A stretch of 64,000 nucleotides of DNA from an uncultured Bacteroidales bacterium (GTDB lineage: Bacteria > Bacteroidota > Bacteroidia > Bacteroidales > Muribaculaceae), in contig CADAZN010000015.1 in assembly GCA_902792435.1 (NCBI GenBank), positions 109,172 to 173,171 on the forward strand, in the 5' to 3' direction. The notes beneath the pieces were generated by a model that ran no database searches, was not told the origin of the DNA, and saw only the letters and a program-made list of their open reading frames with translations. This document shows, in pieces, positions 5,793 to 64,000 of the stretch (position 1 is the first letter of the stretch; every line of letters starts with the position of its first letter). The position numbers and the translations under genes are program-made.

Positions 5793-8231
5793 TTATGCAG
5801 GTTTAGTATACAAGTCATGTTGCATTGTCAAGAAGAACTCACGCAGTTGCGCTGGGTTCATGTCTAGTTCTTGCTTGGCATCGCTAATTGAATGGTATTT
5901 CATGTTCAGCAGCGTCGACAGCTTGTCCATTCCAAGTTCCTTATAACCATTATTGACATACATGTCAAGCACAAATGCCACAAATTCTCGACGTGGCTGC
6001 GTGGTCTTCTTCTCAATGTCTTTAAGCAGAATCTCCGCACGGCGCTTTCGTTCGAGCGGTGTTGTGTTATAGGCCAGGTAGCTCAGCACATCAAGCATAT
6101 CGCAGTTCTCCATTTCCAAGAATCTACGCATTAGGTTCAGCTTCTCTTCTTGGAATCCCGACTGCTCTAGCAAGTCTAGCAGTTGCTGACGTGTCTCTGG
6201 TTGAGACCAGCGTTCGCGCAGGTCTTCCTCGCCGTCAAGGAATTTAGGCAATGCGCCGAAAAGACGTTTAATATATTCCTCTATCGATATCAGTTCATCG
6301 CCAAACTGCACATGCTCGGTCCAGTCGGTCCTTAATGAAAGGCTGCGCAATGGTGATAGTTTCACCACCACCTTATTCTTCTTTCCACCACCTTTGCCTT
6401 CACAGGTGCAAGGCATGTGTCCGCACACTGGGCAAGGCTTTGGTGTGCAATACATCTCTAGTGGCTCTTCAACAACATCTATGCCCTCATCTAGCTTATC
6501 AGTTTTTCCGCAGGCACATGGGTAGTAGCCGCAAATCGGGCAGCAAGGATCACCATCCCACTCCTCATCTTGGAAATTCTTCGATGCTCCCACGTAGTCA
6601 TAAAGCGTGAAGAAGAACTTGCCGTCAAAGAGGCGCGTGCCACGGCCCATAATCTGCTTAAACTCCACCATGTTGTTCACTGGGCGGAACAGCACTATGT
6701 TACGCACATTCCGGGCATCAACGCCTGTCGACAATTTCTGCGAGGTGGTGAGAATCGTTGGCCGCAACAAGTCATTGTTTTGGAAAAGCCTTAGCCTTTT
6801 CTCGCCTTGGTCGCCATCATCGGCCGTCACACGTTCACAATAGTTTGAGTCGGGCACTTTCTTGTGCTGGTTTATCATCGCAGCTATCTCCAAGGCATGT
6901 GCTTGGGTGGCGCAGAACACTATCGTCTTCTCATTAGGGTCTATCTTATTGAGCAACTCCTTAACGCGGTGCTCATCACGCTCACGCATCTTGATGTCTC
7001 CACGATAGAAATCCTCCTCAGTGTACACCTTTTCCTCATCTATCTCTCCCTCTACGTCATCATTAGGGTTATAGGTGTAAGTGTCGATATTGCTTGTCGC
7101 AACTCTCACTCGGTAAGGTGTTAAGAAACCATCCTCAATGCCTTGTTTCAGCGAGTAGCTGTAAACTGGGTCATTAAAGTATTTATAGGTGTTTGCGTTA
7201 ACTTTGCGGCGAGGTGTTGCTGTCATACCCAGTTGCACTGCTGGCTCAAACCACTCCATCAGTTTGCGCCATTCGCTCTCGTCATTGGCTCCACCACGGT
7301 GGCACTCGTCAATGATGATGAAATCAAAGAAGTCTTTTGGCCACTGTTTGTAGTATTCTTCACCGTCAGCATCTTTTCCCATTATCGTTTGGAAGATTGT
7401 GAAGTACAGATGCCTTGCCATCGGCAGCTTGCCGTTAAGTGCATCCTTGCCGCCTGTTTTGTTCAAACGCTCGGCAGTCACGCGCTCCATCGCATCCTCG
7501 TCAAACTGCTCAAAGTCGTTTTTTGCTTGGTTTGCCAGTATGTTACGGTCGGCAAGGAACAGGATGCGTGGCTTTTGGTCCTTACCTCGGGTATTCCAGT
7601 TGGTTTGGTAGAGTTTCCAGCATATTTGGAATGCTGTGTAGGTTTTTCCCGTTCCTGTCGCCATTGTGAGCAGTATGCGTCTTTGGCCCTTTGCAATAGC
7701 CGTCAGCACCGATTCAATAGCTATCTCCTGATAGTAACGAGGCTCACGGCCACCGCCACGATTGAGCGGACACAGATTGAACGTGTCGCGCCACTCGTTT
7801 TTCTCGGGATAGGTCATCTGCCACAGCTCTTGTGGAGTAGGGAACCTATCTACAAACTTTTCAGTCGATGGTATTATATAGTTGCCTTGAGCGTCTTGCG
7901 CCCCCATGTCTATCTGCCAAATCTCGTCGCCGTTGGTAGCATAGGCAAAACGGATATTCAGCATCTCGGCATATTGCTTTGCTTGAGGTATTCCTTCGGC
8001 AAAGCTCTTCTCATCGCTTTTGGCCTCGATAACCGCAAGTTTTTTCTTTTTATATTCCAATATATAGTCCGCCTTCTTTGGGTGACGGTTCTGTGGCAGC
8101 GACGACACCTTACCTGGAGCAATCTCATACGCACGCTGCTCCGTCAGTATCTCACTTTGAGGTACCTGCTCCCAACCCACTTCATAAAGTTTCGGGTCTA
8201 TTTTCTTGCGTCTTGTAGCGGTCTCGTCCAT
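5793..8231 (-). CDS. hsdR: Type I restriction enzyme, R subunit (HsdR)
   Basis: Motor and nuclease subunit of a type I restriction-modification complex; it translocates DNA using ATP and cuts unmodified DNA. At 812 residues it is in the shorter HsdR class. The N-terminal nuclease has D55, E69 and K71 (DYILEY...VIEAKS), a PD-(D/E)xK core. Walker A GTGKT is near 193 and the DECH box (IIIDECHRGG) near 306, with late helicase motif MGRGTRLFDGKF near 530. Between the motor and the C-terminal domain, at about 560-620, are two cysteine clusters, CCPICGYYPCACG and CPVCGHMPCTC, which look like paired zinc knuckles. Last gene of the hsdM-hsdS-hsdR operon, 6 bases after hsdS. Confidence 0.95.
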   Translation of the reverse strand: MDETATRRKKIDPKLYEVGWEQVPQSEILTEQRAYEIAPGKVSSLPQNRHPKKADYILEYKKKKLAVIEAKSDEKSFAEGIPQAKQYAEMLNIRFAYATNGDEIWQIDMGAQDAQGNYIIPSTEKFVDRFPTPQELWQMTYPEKNEWRDTFNLCPLNRGGGREPRYYQEIAIESVLTAIAKGQRRILLTMATGTGKTYTAFQICWKLYQTNWNTRGKDQKPRILFLADRNILANQAKNDFEQFDEDAMERVTAERLNKTGGKDALNGKLPMARHLYFTIFQTIMGKDADGEEYYKQWPKDFFDFIIIDECHRGGANDESEWRKLMEWFEPAVQLGMTATPRRKVNANTYKYFNDPVYSYSLKQGIEDGFLTPYRVRVATSNIDTYTYNPNDDVEGEIDEEKVYTEEDFYRGDIKMRERDEHRVKELLNKIDPNEKTIVFCATQAHALEIAAMINQHKKVPDSNYCERVTADDGDQGEKRLRLFQNNDLLRPTILTTSQKLSTGVDARNVRNIVLFRPVNNMVEFKQIMGRGTRLFDGKFFFTLYDYVGASKNFQDEEWDGDPCCPICGYYPCACGKTDKLDEGIDVVEEPLEMYCTPKPCPVCGHMPCTCEGKGGGKKNKVVVKLSPLRSLSLRTDWTEHVQFGDELISIEEYIKRLFGALPKFLDGEEDLRERWSQPETRQQLLDLLEQSGFQEEKLNLMRRFLEMENCDMLDVLSYLAYNTTPLERKRRAEILLKDIEKKTTQPRREFVAFVLDMYVNNGYKELGMDKLSTLLNMKYHSISDAKQELDMNPAQLREFFLTMQHDLYTKPA

Positions 8232-8237
8232 ATCTGA

Positions 8238-9350
8238 TTATTCAAATATTTGTCTTAAAATTGACTGTTTAAGAGCATCACACTCAGCTATAACCTTGCG
8301 GTTGATTTCTTCCAACTTTTGCATGTTGTCCGACAAAGCATCAAGCTTTTGTACAATTTCTTGTTGCTCAGAGATAGAGATAATAGGAATTTCAACTTTC
8401 TTTATTTTTTGCTGCGAAATATTTGGCTGAGCTCCACCTTGTGCTTGTGACGCCAAGTCATTTTCAATATGCTTGAACCAATAATAAACGTATTCTGGCA
8501 CAAACTCTTTTGATGGCAATATACCACAAACCGCTTGATTGGAGGTCGCTCTGAATTTCAAAATCCCTACTTGGGCTGCCGTAGCACCATACATTGCAAC
8601 AAGAAGAGTGTTTACGGGGAAATATTTTGCAGAAGAATTCTTTACTCCTTCTTCGGTAATATACATTTCGCATTTTGTGATGTATTTTCTACAGACTTCT
8701 CCACTCCTAAGCCAAGGAATTGTTCCTTTTTCATAATAAGACTTTTCTGATTTAATAGGAGTCCCTCCTGAATAGGTTTTAAATAATGCACCTATTGATT
8801 TCATTTTCCACCCCTCTTTCGGTTGCATTGCTTCGGTAAGAGCTGCTTGGAAGAGTTTCCGTGCGTCATCAAGTTGCTTTTGCGAATTATCTTTCAGCGT
8901 GTCAATATCTTCAAAAGCCTTATCAAGATACTCAACAATCTGTTCCTGCTTATACAGATTAGGATAACAAATTTCTAATGGATAAAGTGTTTGTCTTGTT
9001 ATTTGTGGCTGTGCAGCACCGGTTATAATTTTACTTTTATCAATATATGATAGAATATAAGTTAAGAATAATTTATTAATAACAGATTCATCCTTAATAT
9101 GTACAACCATTGCATTTCCATTAATCCAAGACTTTGGAGTTGAGACATTAATGTTGCCACATGTTGCACCACGGCAAGTCATTAATATTTCAGGTAATTC
9201 ATGATTATATTTATCATATTTCCCAATTATACCATTGGCACCAAAAACATTGTATTCCCCATTAGTTACCATATCTTTTTTTGATATAGTTTGAGGTTGA
9301 TATAGGTCGCAAACTTCTCCCAATGGTTTATATGTCCACCCCTTCTTCAT
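8238..9350 (-). CDS. hsdS: Type I restriction enzyme, specificity subunit (HsdS)
   Basis: Sequence-recognition subunit shared by the methylase (M2S) and nuclease (R2M2S) complexes. Its 370 residues show the standard two-repeat plan. A first target recognition domain covers about 1-150 and a conserved helical spacer about 155-190 (EQIVEYLDKAFEDIDTL). A second recognition domain follows from about 197 (GWKMKSIGALFKTYSGGTP). The distal helix (EQQEIVQKLDALSDNMQKLEE) lies at the C terminus. The start ATG overlaps the hsdM stop (ATGA), so translation is probably coupled. Codon use is more AT-rich than hsdM and hsdR, as often found for specificity genes that are exchanged between strains. No second or inverted hsdS copy is present nearby. 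Target sequence unknown. Confidence 0.95.
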   Translation of the reverse strand: MKKGWTYKPLGEVCDLYQPQTISKKDMVTNGEYNVFGANGIIGKYDKYNHELPEILMTCRGATCGNINVSTPKSWINGNAMVVHIKDESVINKLFLTYILSYIDKSKIITGAAQPQITRQTLYPLEICYPNLYKQEQIVEYLDKAFEDIDTLKDNSQKQLDDARKLFQAALTEAMQPKEGWKMKSIGALFKTYSGGTPIKSEKSYYEKGTIPWLRSGEVCRKYITKCEMYITEEGVKNSSAKYFPVNTLLVAMYGATAAQVGILKFRATSNQAVCGILPSKEFVPEYVYYWFKHIENDLASQAQGGAQPNISQQKIKKVEIPIISISEQQEIVQKLDALSDNMQKLEEINRKVIAECDALKQSILRQIFE

Positions 9351-60856: not shown

Positions 60857-60897
60857 GAATGAGGGTGTGTCATGACACACCCTCATTTTCTTTTTAC
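60857..60897 (+). terminator. Terminator of the rpmB-rpmG operon
   Basis: GAGGGTGTGTCA/TGACACACCCTC is a perfect 24-base palindrome followed by ATTTTCTTTTT. Confidence 0.92.
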
Positions 60898-60940: not shown

Positions 60941-60948
60941 TATATTTG
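60941..60948 (+). promoter_or_regulatory. -7 box of the 61-64 kb cluster
   Basis: TATATTTG, 79 bases before the first start codon; -33 not seen at the usual spacing. Confidence 0.5.
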
Positions 60949-61026: not shown

Positions 61027-61665
61027 ATGAGGCATTTTCTAAAAATAACTTTCTTAATTGGCTTTATTGCATTTTCAATTATTACCGCAAGTGGCCAACA
61101 ATTGAAAATAAAACGAATTAATACACCTAATGTAAATATTAATGGAAAATTGCTTAAAGTAGGTGACTCTTTCAACAAGCAGGATGTTATCAATTGGGCA
61201 AATGACAAACAAGCGTTGATTGCCCAAGATGGAGCTGGAAAGATGTACAGATTATCGGCATCGCAGGCAAAAGGGCAAAAAGGTTTCTCCTTCGAGAAGC
61301 TCCTTGGCTTGCAAAAGAGCTACGTGCACTTGTCTTCACGTGACTTGGGAGATGAAGTGGAAGTCGGTGGAGAATATATAATTGAAGATTCGGTTGAGAT
61401 ACCCACTACCACTAGCCCAGACGATGAAGAAGATTACGTGGTTAAGCTTACTTATGTTGATAATGATGTCGAGAACACATACTGGCCCGCACTCAACGAA
61501 ACAAAAACAGCGGCTATTGTTCGAAATGACATATTTTGTGGAGAACCAAGAGTGTTGAAATTGAACATGTATATAATTCCTGAAGGAGAAGAAGCATTAT
61601 TGATTAGTAATGAAATAACCTTAATACCATTAGATATTGCTTTGCGAACTGAAGATTGCCCCTAA
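61027..61665 (+). CDS. Secreted protein of unknown function, first gene of the CHASE2/TPR cluster
   Basis: 212 residues. Signal peptide about 1-23 (ending ASGQ). The mature part starts with a beta-rich piece QLKIKRINTPNVNINGKLLK, then VGDSFNKQDVINWANDKQAL, a short helix with a conserved-looking pattern, and an acidic segment TTTSPDDEEDYV. The C-terminal half is beta-rich with two cysteines (DIFCGEP, TEDCP). No family recognised with confidence. The next gene follows after 42 bases, and GC content drops relative to the rpmB region. Confidence 0.7.
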   Translation: MRHFLKITFLIGFIAFSIITASGQQLKIKRINTPNVNINGKLLKVGDSFNKQDVINWANDKQALIAQDGAGKMYRLSASQAKGQKGFSFEKLLGLQKSYVHLSSRDLGDEVEVGGEYIIEDSVEIPTTTSPDDEEDYVVKLTYVDNDVENTYWPALNETKTAAIVRNDIFCGEPRVLKLNMYIIPEGEEALLISNEITLIPLDIALRTEDCP

Positions 61666-61707
61666 CAATATCAAAGACGAATTTAAGGGCTAGAATATCA
61701 TCCTATT

Positions 61708-62973
61708 ATGACAAAGGTGAAAGACAAAACAAAACGGAACAATATTATTAAGGCAGCCATTACTGCCATAATATTCACTTTATTCTGTTACTATGTCACT
61801 AATCTTGGTTTCTCTATCTCAGGAGAAAGTGCATTAGTGACAAAGATAAACAAAAGAATAAAAGAGTGGAAACAAATAAAAACAGATGTTCCTGATAGCG
61901 TTCTGCTGGTTAATATTAGTTATGATAAAGAGCTGATACCCGTAAATGACTCCGACGGATTCCCAAAAGGAGAGATTGATATAACAAACCGTGAATCCCT
62001 TTTAAAATTTCTTGATATTTTAGACCAAAGGAAGGATTATAAATTTGTATTCCTTGATGTTTTTTTTGAAGAAGGTTTTAATTCTCCCAGCGACAGTGCC
62101 TTGTTTAATAAAATATCTTCAATGCCACGTGTGGTGATTCCACGTCACAGGGATGCTAAGTTGGCAGCAAAAGATTTATTAATGCCTAAATCTTACATTT
62201 CGGACTATACTATCACAAATACCAATAAGGGGTTTGGGAAATATGAATTAATTGCCGAGGGCGATACCTCGGTGGCTCTTCACATGTATAAAGAGTTGAC
62301 CGGGCATGACATTAAAAAGAGATTTATATTTTACTTTGATAATGGCAGGCTGTGCAACAGCACACTTTTCTCACGTCAATCAATAAATTTTGATGCGCCT
62401 TATAATGCCGACGGCGAGAAGAATTATTATAACCTGAATGCTGATTTGTTATGTGACTCAATTGAATTGGTTGAGGTTGAGGATGCGAGGTTGAAGGACA
62501 AATATATTATCATCGGTGCTATGGAGATGACAGATATCCATGCAACAGCCGAAGGGAAAATACCGGGGGCGGTCATCACAGCAAATGCATTTATCGGGAC
62601 CATGAACGGTCAACACATTGTGCCTGTGGTCATGATTTTCGTCTTTCTTTTTATTCTTTTTATTGTTTCTTATCAAGTTTTCTCGGGCAAGACGATTGCA
62701 AAATGGATAAAGAAGAAACTGGAAACGAAAAATATTATTATTAATCCTACTATTTTTGCCTACTTGTGTTCATGGGTTAGTTATGTTTCTATTCTATCAA
62801 TAGCGGGTGTAATTTCCTATATAGTATACGGTGTGATCTACGATATTCTATTTACTGCAACGCTGTTTCAAGTTGCCGATTACATTATTACCAACTGGAA
62901 AGATCTCTCACATCCCAATTGGAACATGATTAAGGATTTATTTATTAATGCAACTTTCTCTAAGGTTAAATGA
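61708..62973 (+). CDS. CHASE2-domain membrane protein without output domain
   Basis: 421 residues. One membrane segment at about 15-33 (AAITAIIFTLFCYYVTNLGF) is followed by an extracytoplasmic CHASE2 domain to about 300. Recognisable CHASE2 pieces are VLLVNISYDKEL, FVFLDVFFEEGFNSPSDSALF, KDKYIIIGAMEMTDIHAT and KIPGAVITANAFIGTMN. Three more membrane segments follow (PVVMIFVFLFILFIVSY, IFAYLCSWVSYVSILSIAGV, VIYDILFTATLF). The protein then ends without kinase, cyclase or other cytoplasmic output. The signal must therefore pass through a partner, probably the adjacent secreted or TPR protein. Confidence 0.85.
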   Translation: MTKVKDKTKRNNIIKAAITAIIFTLFCYYVTNLGFSISGESALVTKINKRIKEWKQIKTDVPDSVLLVNISYDKELIPVNDSDGFPKGEIDITNRESLLKFLDILDQRKDYKFVFLDVFFEEGFNSPSDSALFNKISSMPRVVIPRHRDAKLAAKDLLMPKSYISDYTITNTNKGFGKYELIAEGDTSVALHMYKELTGHDIKKRFIFYFDNGRLCNSTLFSRQSINFDAPYNADGEKNYYNLNADLLCDSIELVEVEDARLKDKYIIIGAMEMTDIHATAEGKIPGAVITANAFIGTMNGQHIVPVVMIFVFLFILFIVSYQVFSGKTIAKWIKKKLETKNIIINPTIFAYLCSWVSYVSILSIAGVISYIVYGVIYDILFTATLFQVADYIITNWKDLSHPNWNMIKDLFINATFSKVK

Positions 62974-63071
62974 GATAAACTCAGTGTTTTTTTCGACCAT
63001 ATCGGTTTGCTATATATAAATACAACTATCGAGAAAGGAAAAATAATAATAACGGAGAAAAACATAATAAT

Positions 63072-64000
63072 ATGAAAACTAAACTGCTCAATATTCGATT
63101 TTTGGTAATAGCGGTATTCTTCGTTTTCGCTTTTATGCTAAGCGGACAAGACTACAATTCATTGGAAACTAAATTCTATGAAGCCATTGAAAGAAACGAC
63201 CACGAGGCCGCTATTCAGTATGGTCAGCAGTTGATGGACAATTACAAACAAAACACAGCTGAGGATAGTACATTTGCCACGACTCTAGACAAGGTAGCCG
63301 AGCAATATGTTTATTTGGGCAATCATAAAGAAGCCATCCGCATTTTGACAGAGGCAGTGGATATATATAAGAAGGCACTGGGGATAGAGCACCCAGACTA
63401 TGCCACATCGCTCAGCAAATTGGCAGGATACAATTCAGCTATTGGCAACTACAATGAGGCTATAAGATTAGAAACTCAAGCTTTGGAAATCAGGGAGAAA
63501 GTCCTCGGGAAGGAGCATCCTGCCTATGCCGCATCACTCTATTATTTGGCAAGATACAATTCAGCTAGCGGCAACTTAAATGAGGCTATAAGGTTAGACA
63601 CTCAAGCTTTGGGAATCAGGGAGAAAGTCCTCGGGAAGGAGCATCCTGACTATGCCACATCACTCAGCTGCTTGGCAGATTATTATAATGCTATCGGCAA
63701 CCACAATGAGGCTATAAGACTTGGAACTCAAGTTTTGGAAATCAGGGAGAAAGTCCTCGGAAAGGAGCATCCTGCCTATGCCATTTCACTCGGCAGATTG
63801 GCAGAATACAATTCAGCTGTCGGCAACTTAAATGAGGCTATTAGATTAGGCACACAAGCTTTGGAAATCAGGGAGAAAGTCCTCGGAAAGGAGCATCCTG
63901 CCTATGCCGCATCACTCTATTATTTGGCAAGATACAATTCAGCTATCGGCAACTTAAATGAGGCTATTAGGTTAGACACTCAAGCTTTGGAAATCAGGGA
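63072..64000 (+). CDS. Secreted TPR protein (TPR_12 repeats), cut by the window end
   Basis: At least 309 residues, open at the right edge. Signal peptide about 1-26 (LVIAVFFVFAFMLSGQ). After a less regular first repeat, near-identical 42-residue units follow, each with ALEIREKVLGKEHPAYA and GNLNEAIRL. This is the TPR_12 type often found N-terminal to CHAT (caspase-like) domains or in kinesin-light-chain-like proteins. The C-terminal effector, if any, lies outside the window. It starts 98 bases after the CHASE2 gene on the same strand. Confidence 0.85.
   Translation, partial: MKTKLLNIRFLVIAVFFVFAFMLSGQDYNSLETKFYEAIERNDHEAAIQYGQQLMDNYKQNTAEDSTFATTLDKVAEQYVYLGNHKEAIRILTEAVDIYKKALGIEHPDYATSLSKLAGYNSAIGNYNEAIRLETQALEIREKVLGKEHPAYAASLYYLARYNSASGNLNEAIRLDTQALGIREKVLGKEHPDYATSLSCLADYYNAIGNHNEAIRLGTQVLEIREKVLGKEHPAYAISLGRLAEYNSAVGNLNEAIRLGTQALEIREKVLGKEHPAYAASLYYLARYNSAIGNLNEAIRLDTQALEIR
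63321..64000 (+). repeat. 126-base direct repeats encoding TPR units
   Basis: AATGAGGCTATAAG-like segments recur at 63453, 63579, 63705, 63831 and 63957, exactly 126 bases apart, with a diverged unit near 63321. DNA identity between units is high enough for recombination to change copy number. Confidence 0.9.

Follow-up and report, generated by a model that had tools for sequence, protein, structure and literature searches.

The 64,000-nucleotide stretch of DNA analysed here (the window; contig CADAZN010000015.1, here G000:C15, positions 109172-173171), from an uncultured Bacteroidales bacterium of the Muribaculaceae, ends in a cluster of three co-directional plus-strand open reading frames (ORFs) with intergenic gaps of 42 and 98 bases. 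They encode a small secreted protein (hereafter the companion), a CHASE2 membrane protein and the N-terminal part of a tetratricopeptide repeat (TPR) protein. Our survey makes it very likely that this trio belongs to a recurrent CHASE2-companion(-protease) module, for which gene order, the domains of relatives, co-occurrence, gene fusions and conserved catalytic residues were directly observed. The secreted companion stays constant beside CHASE2, whereas the caspase-fold protease is C14 in more loci than CHAT and missing in others. In the window, the CHASE2 and companion genes are adjacent, and the assembly ends before any protease end; we nevertheless favour the view that the trio is a periplasmic receptor-companion-protease module. 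It is about an even call whether Bacteroidota more broadly possess an undescribed module operating wholly outside the cytoplasm, in which an output-less CHASE2 protein acts through the companion family on an exported, exchangeable CHAT or C14 protease.

Pfam assigns CHASE2 (PF05226) to residues 94-304 of the 421-aa window protein at 31.3 bits (cut-off 26.3); a six-frame genome search scored the same gene at 23.1, below the cut-off, where some of its relatives (e.g. L187) also fall. A hydropathy scan placed membrane segments at residues 13-31, 304-322 and 359-377, with a fourth likely by eye, so that the extracytoplasmic domain lies between membrane helices, as in CHASE2 receptors. About 30 residues remain after the last membrane segment, and the Pfam scan found no output domain (kinase or cyclase) on the chain, which bears out the first-pass annotation, prepared from the sequence alone, in describing a CHASE2 protein that has no output domain and ends near its last membrane helix. 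The same annotation had seen three plus-strand genes at the above spacings, all membrane-bound or exported, and the ORF listing, Pfam and hydropathy agree: each of the three proteins has a hydrophobic segment near its N-terminus, and Pfam finds TPR_12 in five stretches of the TPR protein (E 1e-63). As a query, the window CHASE2 protein retrieved relatives in 3 other genomes among the 101 genomes of its genus, and the Pfam CHASE2 profile matched 14 of the 101. An alignment of 14 CHASE2 proteins (A1) reached 63 of 297 family genomes, spread over 19 of 30 genera, and 88 of 390 genomes sampled across the phylum, where many matches were weak or in proteins of at least 700 aa. Across the 81 CHASE2 loci studied in the family (21 from the window's own genus and 60 from other genera), CHASE2 ORFs are mostly 370-470 aa long, which leaves little room for an output domain. 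Seven residues (R, Q, Y, S, F, F and D) are invariant at the C-terminus of 16 aligned CHASE2 proteins (alignment A4), in the last membrane helices and beyond them, and W and G are almost so, suggesting that the membrane part is functional.

A companion lies within 8 kb of CHASE2 in 75 of the 81 loci and within 100 bp in 71, as counted with a profile iterated on the same ORFs; blastp recovered two further companions below the profile threshold (L189 and L202). Companions in these loci are mostly 160-300 aa long, and those counted lie on the CHASE2 strand in 73 loci and are fused to CHASE2 in 2. A companion profile was built from 14 proteins and iterated without the window protein; searched against 1148 ORFs, it recovered that protein at E 7e-9. 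After removal of the first 25 residues from every ORF, this hidden Markov model (HMM) matched it at E 9e-4 and 15.0 bits, compared with 6.5 bits for the best of 1000 shuffles of the mature window companion. When the mature protein was compared by blastp with 2570 ORFs, the first eight non-self matches (E 2e-10 to 0.001) were all companions, either stand-alone (L142 and L014) or fused to C14 (L189, L155, L190, L191, L192 and L173); all 2570 ORFs came from CHASE2 loci, so that proximity to CHASE2 is built into this search and its informative part is that the matches fall on the companion ORF. On the strength of the held-out HMM, the shuffles and blastp, we take the window protein to be a true companion.

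Among the members searched, the companions have no Pfam family, no convincing NCBIfam match and no name in PADLOC. AlphaFold predicted the first 70 mature residues of the window companion well and the rest poorly (mean predicted local distance difference test score, pLDDT, 59.7), and the model had no match in the PDB (best E 0.95). A 261-residue relative was modelled better (81.1) and gave weak matches to immunoglobulin-like MSP domains (best E 3e-3). The structural matches being this weak, no fold is assigned to the companion. A FecR-like periplasmic domain was considered and set aside: there was no Pfam FecR match in the companions scanned.

A caspase-fold protease was found within 8 kb of CHASE2 in 47 of the 81 loci, 15 with CHAT (PF12770) and 32 with C14; here and in the tree labels the unfinished window locus is counted as having no protease, and L065 was labelled CHAT by hand from a 70-residue CHAT tail at a contig edge, where the catalytic residues were not checked. 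The own genus contributes 4 CHAT loci, 1 C14 locus and 16 with no protease, and the other genera 11, 31 and 18, respectively. Thirteen of the 15 CHAT loci have the full set of CHASE2, companion and CHAT (e.g. G169 and G002; the hand-labelled L065 is the thirteenth), and 30 of the 32 C14 loci that of CHASE2, companion and C14. The first-pass annotation had proposed checking whether the neighbourhood is conserved, and CHASE2, companion and CHAT genes are indeed adjacent elsewhere. An arrangement often seen in other genera combines CHASE2 and companion with two longer ORFs, one of about 700 aa and a C14 one of about 880 aa; Pfam, run on L150, shows the first of the two to be beta-propeller-like (matches below the model cut-offs) and the second to be a TPR-C14 protein. 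Some CHAT proteins have no TPR in Pfam (L156 and L187). C14 lies on the CHASE2 strand in 31 of the 32 loci, the fused one included. That CHAT and C14 replace each other while CHASE2 and companion stay is consistent with a receptor core having recruited different proteases.

The linkage to CHAT far exceeds chance. A CHAT match lies within 5 kb of 14 of 74 CHASE2 places, compared with 0.12 expected if the 106 CHAT matches in the 297 genomes were placed uniformly and 0.22 if each genome's own CHAT number is used, that is, about 65-110 times expectation under a Poisson model that assumes a genome size of 2.55 Mb. In G295 and G280, split genes were joined to one place each, and the fetched loci cover all but three of the 74 places (G181:C196, G282:C2 and G262:C239). 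His and Cys align in all 15 CHAT domains from 14 loci (L013 has two), in the CHAT domain on contig C3 of the window's own genome, and in 33 of 33 C14 domains, one of which lies in the CHAT locus L064. In L064, an aspartyl protease-like protein with TPR (7990-9126) stands between the CHASE2-companion pair and a convergent TPR-CHAT gene. A protein that precedes the CHASE2-companion pair of L164 (2513-4384) has a sub-threshold transglutaminase-like match (18.2 bits, cut-off 23) and is possibly another enzyme in the protease slot.

CHASE2, companion and C14 are fused in every pairwise combination: CHASE2 with companion in L156, L166 and the non-family locus L213, CHASE2 with C14 in L144, and companion with C14 in L155, L173, L190, L191, L192 and L189. 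In L156 and L166 the companion profile, including its signal part, aligns after the last CHASE2 membrane segment, as if the fused piece kept its export signal and landed in the periplasm, and a similar signal-like stretch is seen in L144 by eye. Among stand-alone proteins, hydrophobic N-terminal segments are present in 12 of 15 CHAT proteins, 28 of 32 C14 proteins and 65 of 75 companions, compared with 232 of 657 control ORFs; the detector being crude, they support export and do not prove it.

Relatives of the window TPR protein make it very probable that its chain goes on into a CHAT cysteine protease, as the first-pass annotation had proposed, although this end is not visible in the assembly. 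The window ends where the contig ends, inside the TPR array and within its 126-bp repeat, so the gene cannot be extended; the repeat is the likely reason for the assembly break. Within the same genome, the window TPR protein found only itself and one gene on contig C3, and the single CHAT match also lies on C3. No second piece having emerged from either search, the CHAT end, if it exists, is absent from the assembly. In a CHASE2 tree of 78 tips, the window protein groups with those of L014, L013, L169, L142 and L187, each beside a CHAT gene (Shimodaira-Hasegawa (SH) support 0.88, ultrafast bootstrap (UFboot) 71). A wider clade that includes a sister group, C14-linked in 6 of its 7 members, has support of 1.0/100, and 11 of its 12 members other than the window are protease-linked. 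The four genes closest to the window TPR protein, among the matches listed in the 101 genus genomes (G002:C445, G048:C47, G038:C152 and G073:C3), each have a CHAT match, in an open frame that agrees with the gene in contig, strand and length; the best match (58% identity over 195 residues), in G002, comes directly after CHASE2 and companion. In L142, from another genus, TPR-CHAT, CHASE2 and companion form one run, with the CHASE2 start (chosen by eye, 9865) 7 bases past the CHAT stop and a 4-base overlap of CHASE2 and companion.

From these patterns we infer the following scheme. CHASE2 would be an inner-membrane protein whose sensing domain lies in the periplasm, and the companion and the TPR protein would be exported to the same side as that domain. 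A ligand or a state of the envelope would be sensed by CHASE2, and the parts would be in contact, with control running from the receptor to the protease: the companion and the TPR array would relay the signal, and the protease would then cut a periplasmic or outer-membrane target. No signal would need to cross the membrane. The first-pass annotation had held that a partner must carry the signal; because protease and companion look exported, a partner carrying it into the cytoplasm is not required.

Several observations weigh against reading the trio as a periplasmic receptor-companion-protease module. Within the genus, 16 of the 21 CHASE2 loci have no protease within 8 kb, a number that includes the unfinished window and four loci whose contigs are shorter than 8 kb. 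L004 and most of L084-L095 are CHASE2-companion pairs of this kind, several protease-less pairs of the genus adjoin apparent housekeeping genes, and such pairs either act on an unlinked protease or serve another role. Most CHAT genes are not near CHASE2, some of them lying beside sigma- or anti-sigma-like genes, and CHASE2 and CHAT are on opposite strands in 5 of the 14 CHASE2-CHAT loci. As regards the window TPR gene, its CHAT end is absent from the assembly, the CHAT-linked clade has a UFboot of only 71, and the next TPR matches listed (at most 38% identity) often have no CHAT match (e.g. G015:C38 and G015:C15). The companion-Sel1 protein of L202, a locus in the well-supported wider clade of the window CHASE2, lacks a protease domain, which means that a repeat protein need not end in a protease. 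As regards location, the 19-residue hydropathy scan did not flag the stretches in L156, L166 and L144 as membrane segments, so the topology of the fusions is a predicted one, and the signal-peptide test is crude enough for the above share of control ORFs to pass it.

Some of these points would be expected if CHASE2 and the companion were the real unit, a membrane sensor or envelope scaffold around which proteases and TPR proteins are loosely exchanged, with the window TPR gene carrying no protease. The companion is indeed the more constant element (75 of 81 loci vs 47 for the protease), and the protease-less majority in the genus and the companion-Sel1 protein of L202 point the same way. We consider this unlikely, if the strongest competitor, because loose exchange sits poorly with C14 being fused to the companion in six loci and to CHASE2 in one, with its near-invariable placement on the CHASE2 strand, with CHAT linkage at tens of times expectation and with the protease-linked neighbours of the window in its wider clade. 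Much less probable is a route in which CHASE2 signals to the cytoplasm through an unlinked kinase, cyclase or sigma-factor system. CHASE2 is also known as a sensor of cyclases. It is described, in the accessible part of one source, as the sensor of histidine and serine/threonine kinases (PMC2853523), and the TPR-CHAT gene on contig C3 of the same genome lies with extracytoplasmic function (ECF)-sigma-like and anti-sigma-like genes; yet no CHASE2 was seen in the stretch around that C3 cluster, the parts linked to CHASE2 look exported, and no kinase or cyclase gene was noticed in the neighbourhoods viewed, where none was searched for specifically.

A unit for anti-phage defence or cell suicide, akin to caspase-based defence, had been raised in the first-pass annotation and draws on the presence of CHAT and C14 proteases in known systems of defence and death. 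Accessible portions of two further sources connect CHASE2 itself with such functions: one counts it among several variable domains of a protein that has a link to TRADD-N systems (PMC8195603), and a review figure legend proposes it as a death-signal receptor on cyanobacterial caspases (PMC7475262). Our data do not support such a role, which we regard as improbable, slightly more so than signalling to the cytoplasm: among 10 proteins scanned with PADLOC-DB, none matched a system-specific anti-phage model and only generic TPR or caspase models and weak non-specific matches were returned, the module looks exported, and the window copy adjoins a ribosomal protein gene. The periplasmic receptor-companion-protease module thus remains the reading we prefer.

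The module also extends beyond the family. At 20 places fetched outside it, mainly from the stronger matches of the phylum search, the same profile found a companion in 14 (fused in L213, at threshold in L208), and in L204, L207 and L221 the companion position is taken by an unrecognised ORF of about 320 aa. CHAT is present in 1 of the 20 (L203, from G620, with TPR-CHAT, CHASE2 and companion in a row) and C14 in 6, somewhere in the fetched stretch. A plasmid search with the L166 CHASE2 protein found one plasmid record with a similar CHASE2, in Bernardetia. In Cyanobacteria, a single protein with CHAT before CHASE2 is encoded on plasmids of Tolypothrix and others, and 17 plasmid records cover at least 80% of the Tolypothrix protein; on the Tolypothrix plasmid (L227, 4402-6924) this fusion is annotated only as a CHASE2 protein. 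These fusions (e.g. on the plasmid of Tolypothrix sp. PCC 7601) share with the module the link between CHAT and CHASE2 and have TPR and CHAT genes nearby, but CHAT is N-terminal to CHASE2 in one chain and the next gene has no Pfam match.

The nearest precedent is the metacaspase-CHASE2 protein of Trichodesmium erythraeum IMS101, whose caspase is placed in the cytoplasm by the authors in the accessible text (PMC3501461, PMC2853523). There, too, CHASE2 has one membrane helix before it and three after it and is joined to a caspase-fold protease, but in one polypeptide, where the metacaspase precedes CHASE2, with the protease assigned to the cytoplasm and, in that text, no mention of a companion. 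The module described here consists mostly of separate genes, has exported-looking parts and a companion, and its protease may be CHAT; in the window, CHASE2 and the TPR protein are on separate genes, unlike the single chains of both cyanobacterial types, metacaspase-CHASE2 and CHAT-CHASE2. A Nostoc cluster comprises, according to the accessible text, a CHASE2 sensor together with a pair of WD40 proteins, one DUF928 protein and one hypothetical protein (PMC5587647). It resembles the C14 form in grouping CHASE2 with WD40 proteins and differs in that the text names no protease and has DUF928 in place of the companion (PMC5587647); one companion in our set matched DUF928 at chance level (E 0.065). 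We found no description of a CHASE2-companion-protease module in the literature searched, a weak negative because subscription papers were mostly uncovered.

Features of the three-gene cluster and of the region upstream of it (positions in the window).
Feature	Position	Strand	Description
Companion gene	61027..61665	+	212 aa; N-terminal signal-like segment, then small beta domain
CHASE2 gene	61708..62973	+	421 aa; presumably periplasmic domain flanked by about 1+3 membrane segments
TPR gene	63072..64000	+	N-terminal 309 aa, open at contig end; exported-looking TPR protein
126-bp tandem repeat (42-aa TPR units)	63387..64000	+	4.9 copies
Terminator-like hairpin, then T-run	60857..60888	+	14 pairs, 6 G-C; between L28 gene and trio
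TATATTTG box, candidate promoter only	60941..60948	+	fits Bacteroidota -7 consensus TAnnTTTG

A ribosomal-protein gene (L28, Pfam) lies upstream of the trio. Because the terminator-like hairpin, one of 4 such sites in the scanned stretch vs 2.5 expected, and the TATATTTG box separate the trio from the L28 gene, the trio is probably its own transcription unit. TAnnTTTG is the -7 promoter consensus of Bacteroidota, and the full two-box promoter pattern was not found at the TATATTTG site (60941-60948).

The TPR gene on contig C3 encodes a TPR-CHAT protein that lies with caspase-like, anti-sigma-like and ECF-sigma-like genes (L012, G000:C3 6667-11969), the sigma and anti-sigma labels resting on sub-cut-off NCBIfam matches. 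This TPR-CHAT protein looks exported, like the window TPR protein (for which CHAT is only predicted), and has His and Cys in place, but no CHASE2 or companion was seen beside it and it is linked to transcription factors. Parts of this arrangement recur in several genomes of the genus. L070, L073 and L077 contain arrays of several CHAT genes together with a secreted-looking ORF of about 230 aa, and the starts of genes near these arrays resemble TIR-like domains (YDIFVSYRR..., by eye only).

CHASE2 proteins of this kind are present in 63 of the 297 family genomes, and no mechanism ascribed to them came up in our searches; with a fixed partner, and a protease as their likely output, they become a testable system. 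The companion, a family unnamed in Pfam, NCBIfam and PADLOC, is a good marker of these loci. Whereas the one CHASE2-linked caspase in the literature we saw is placed in the cytoplasm in the accessible text, the module would, if our reading is correct, add receptor-controlled periplasmic proteolysis to the uses of caspase-fold proteases, and the 'missing' output of these CHASE2 receptors would be a periplasmic protease, on the side where their sensing domain lies.

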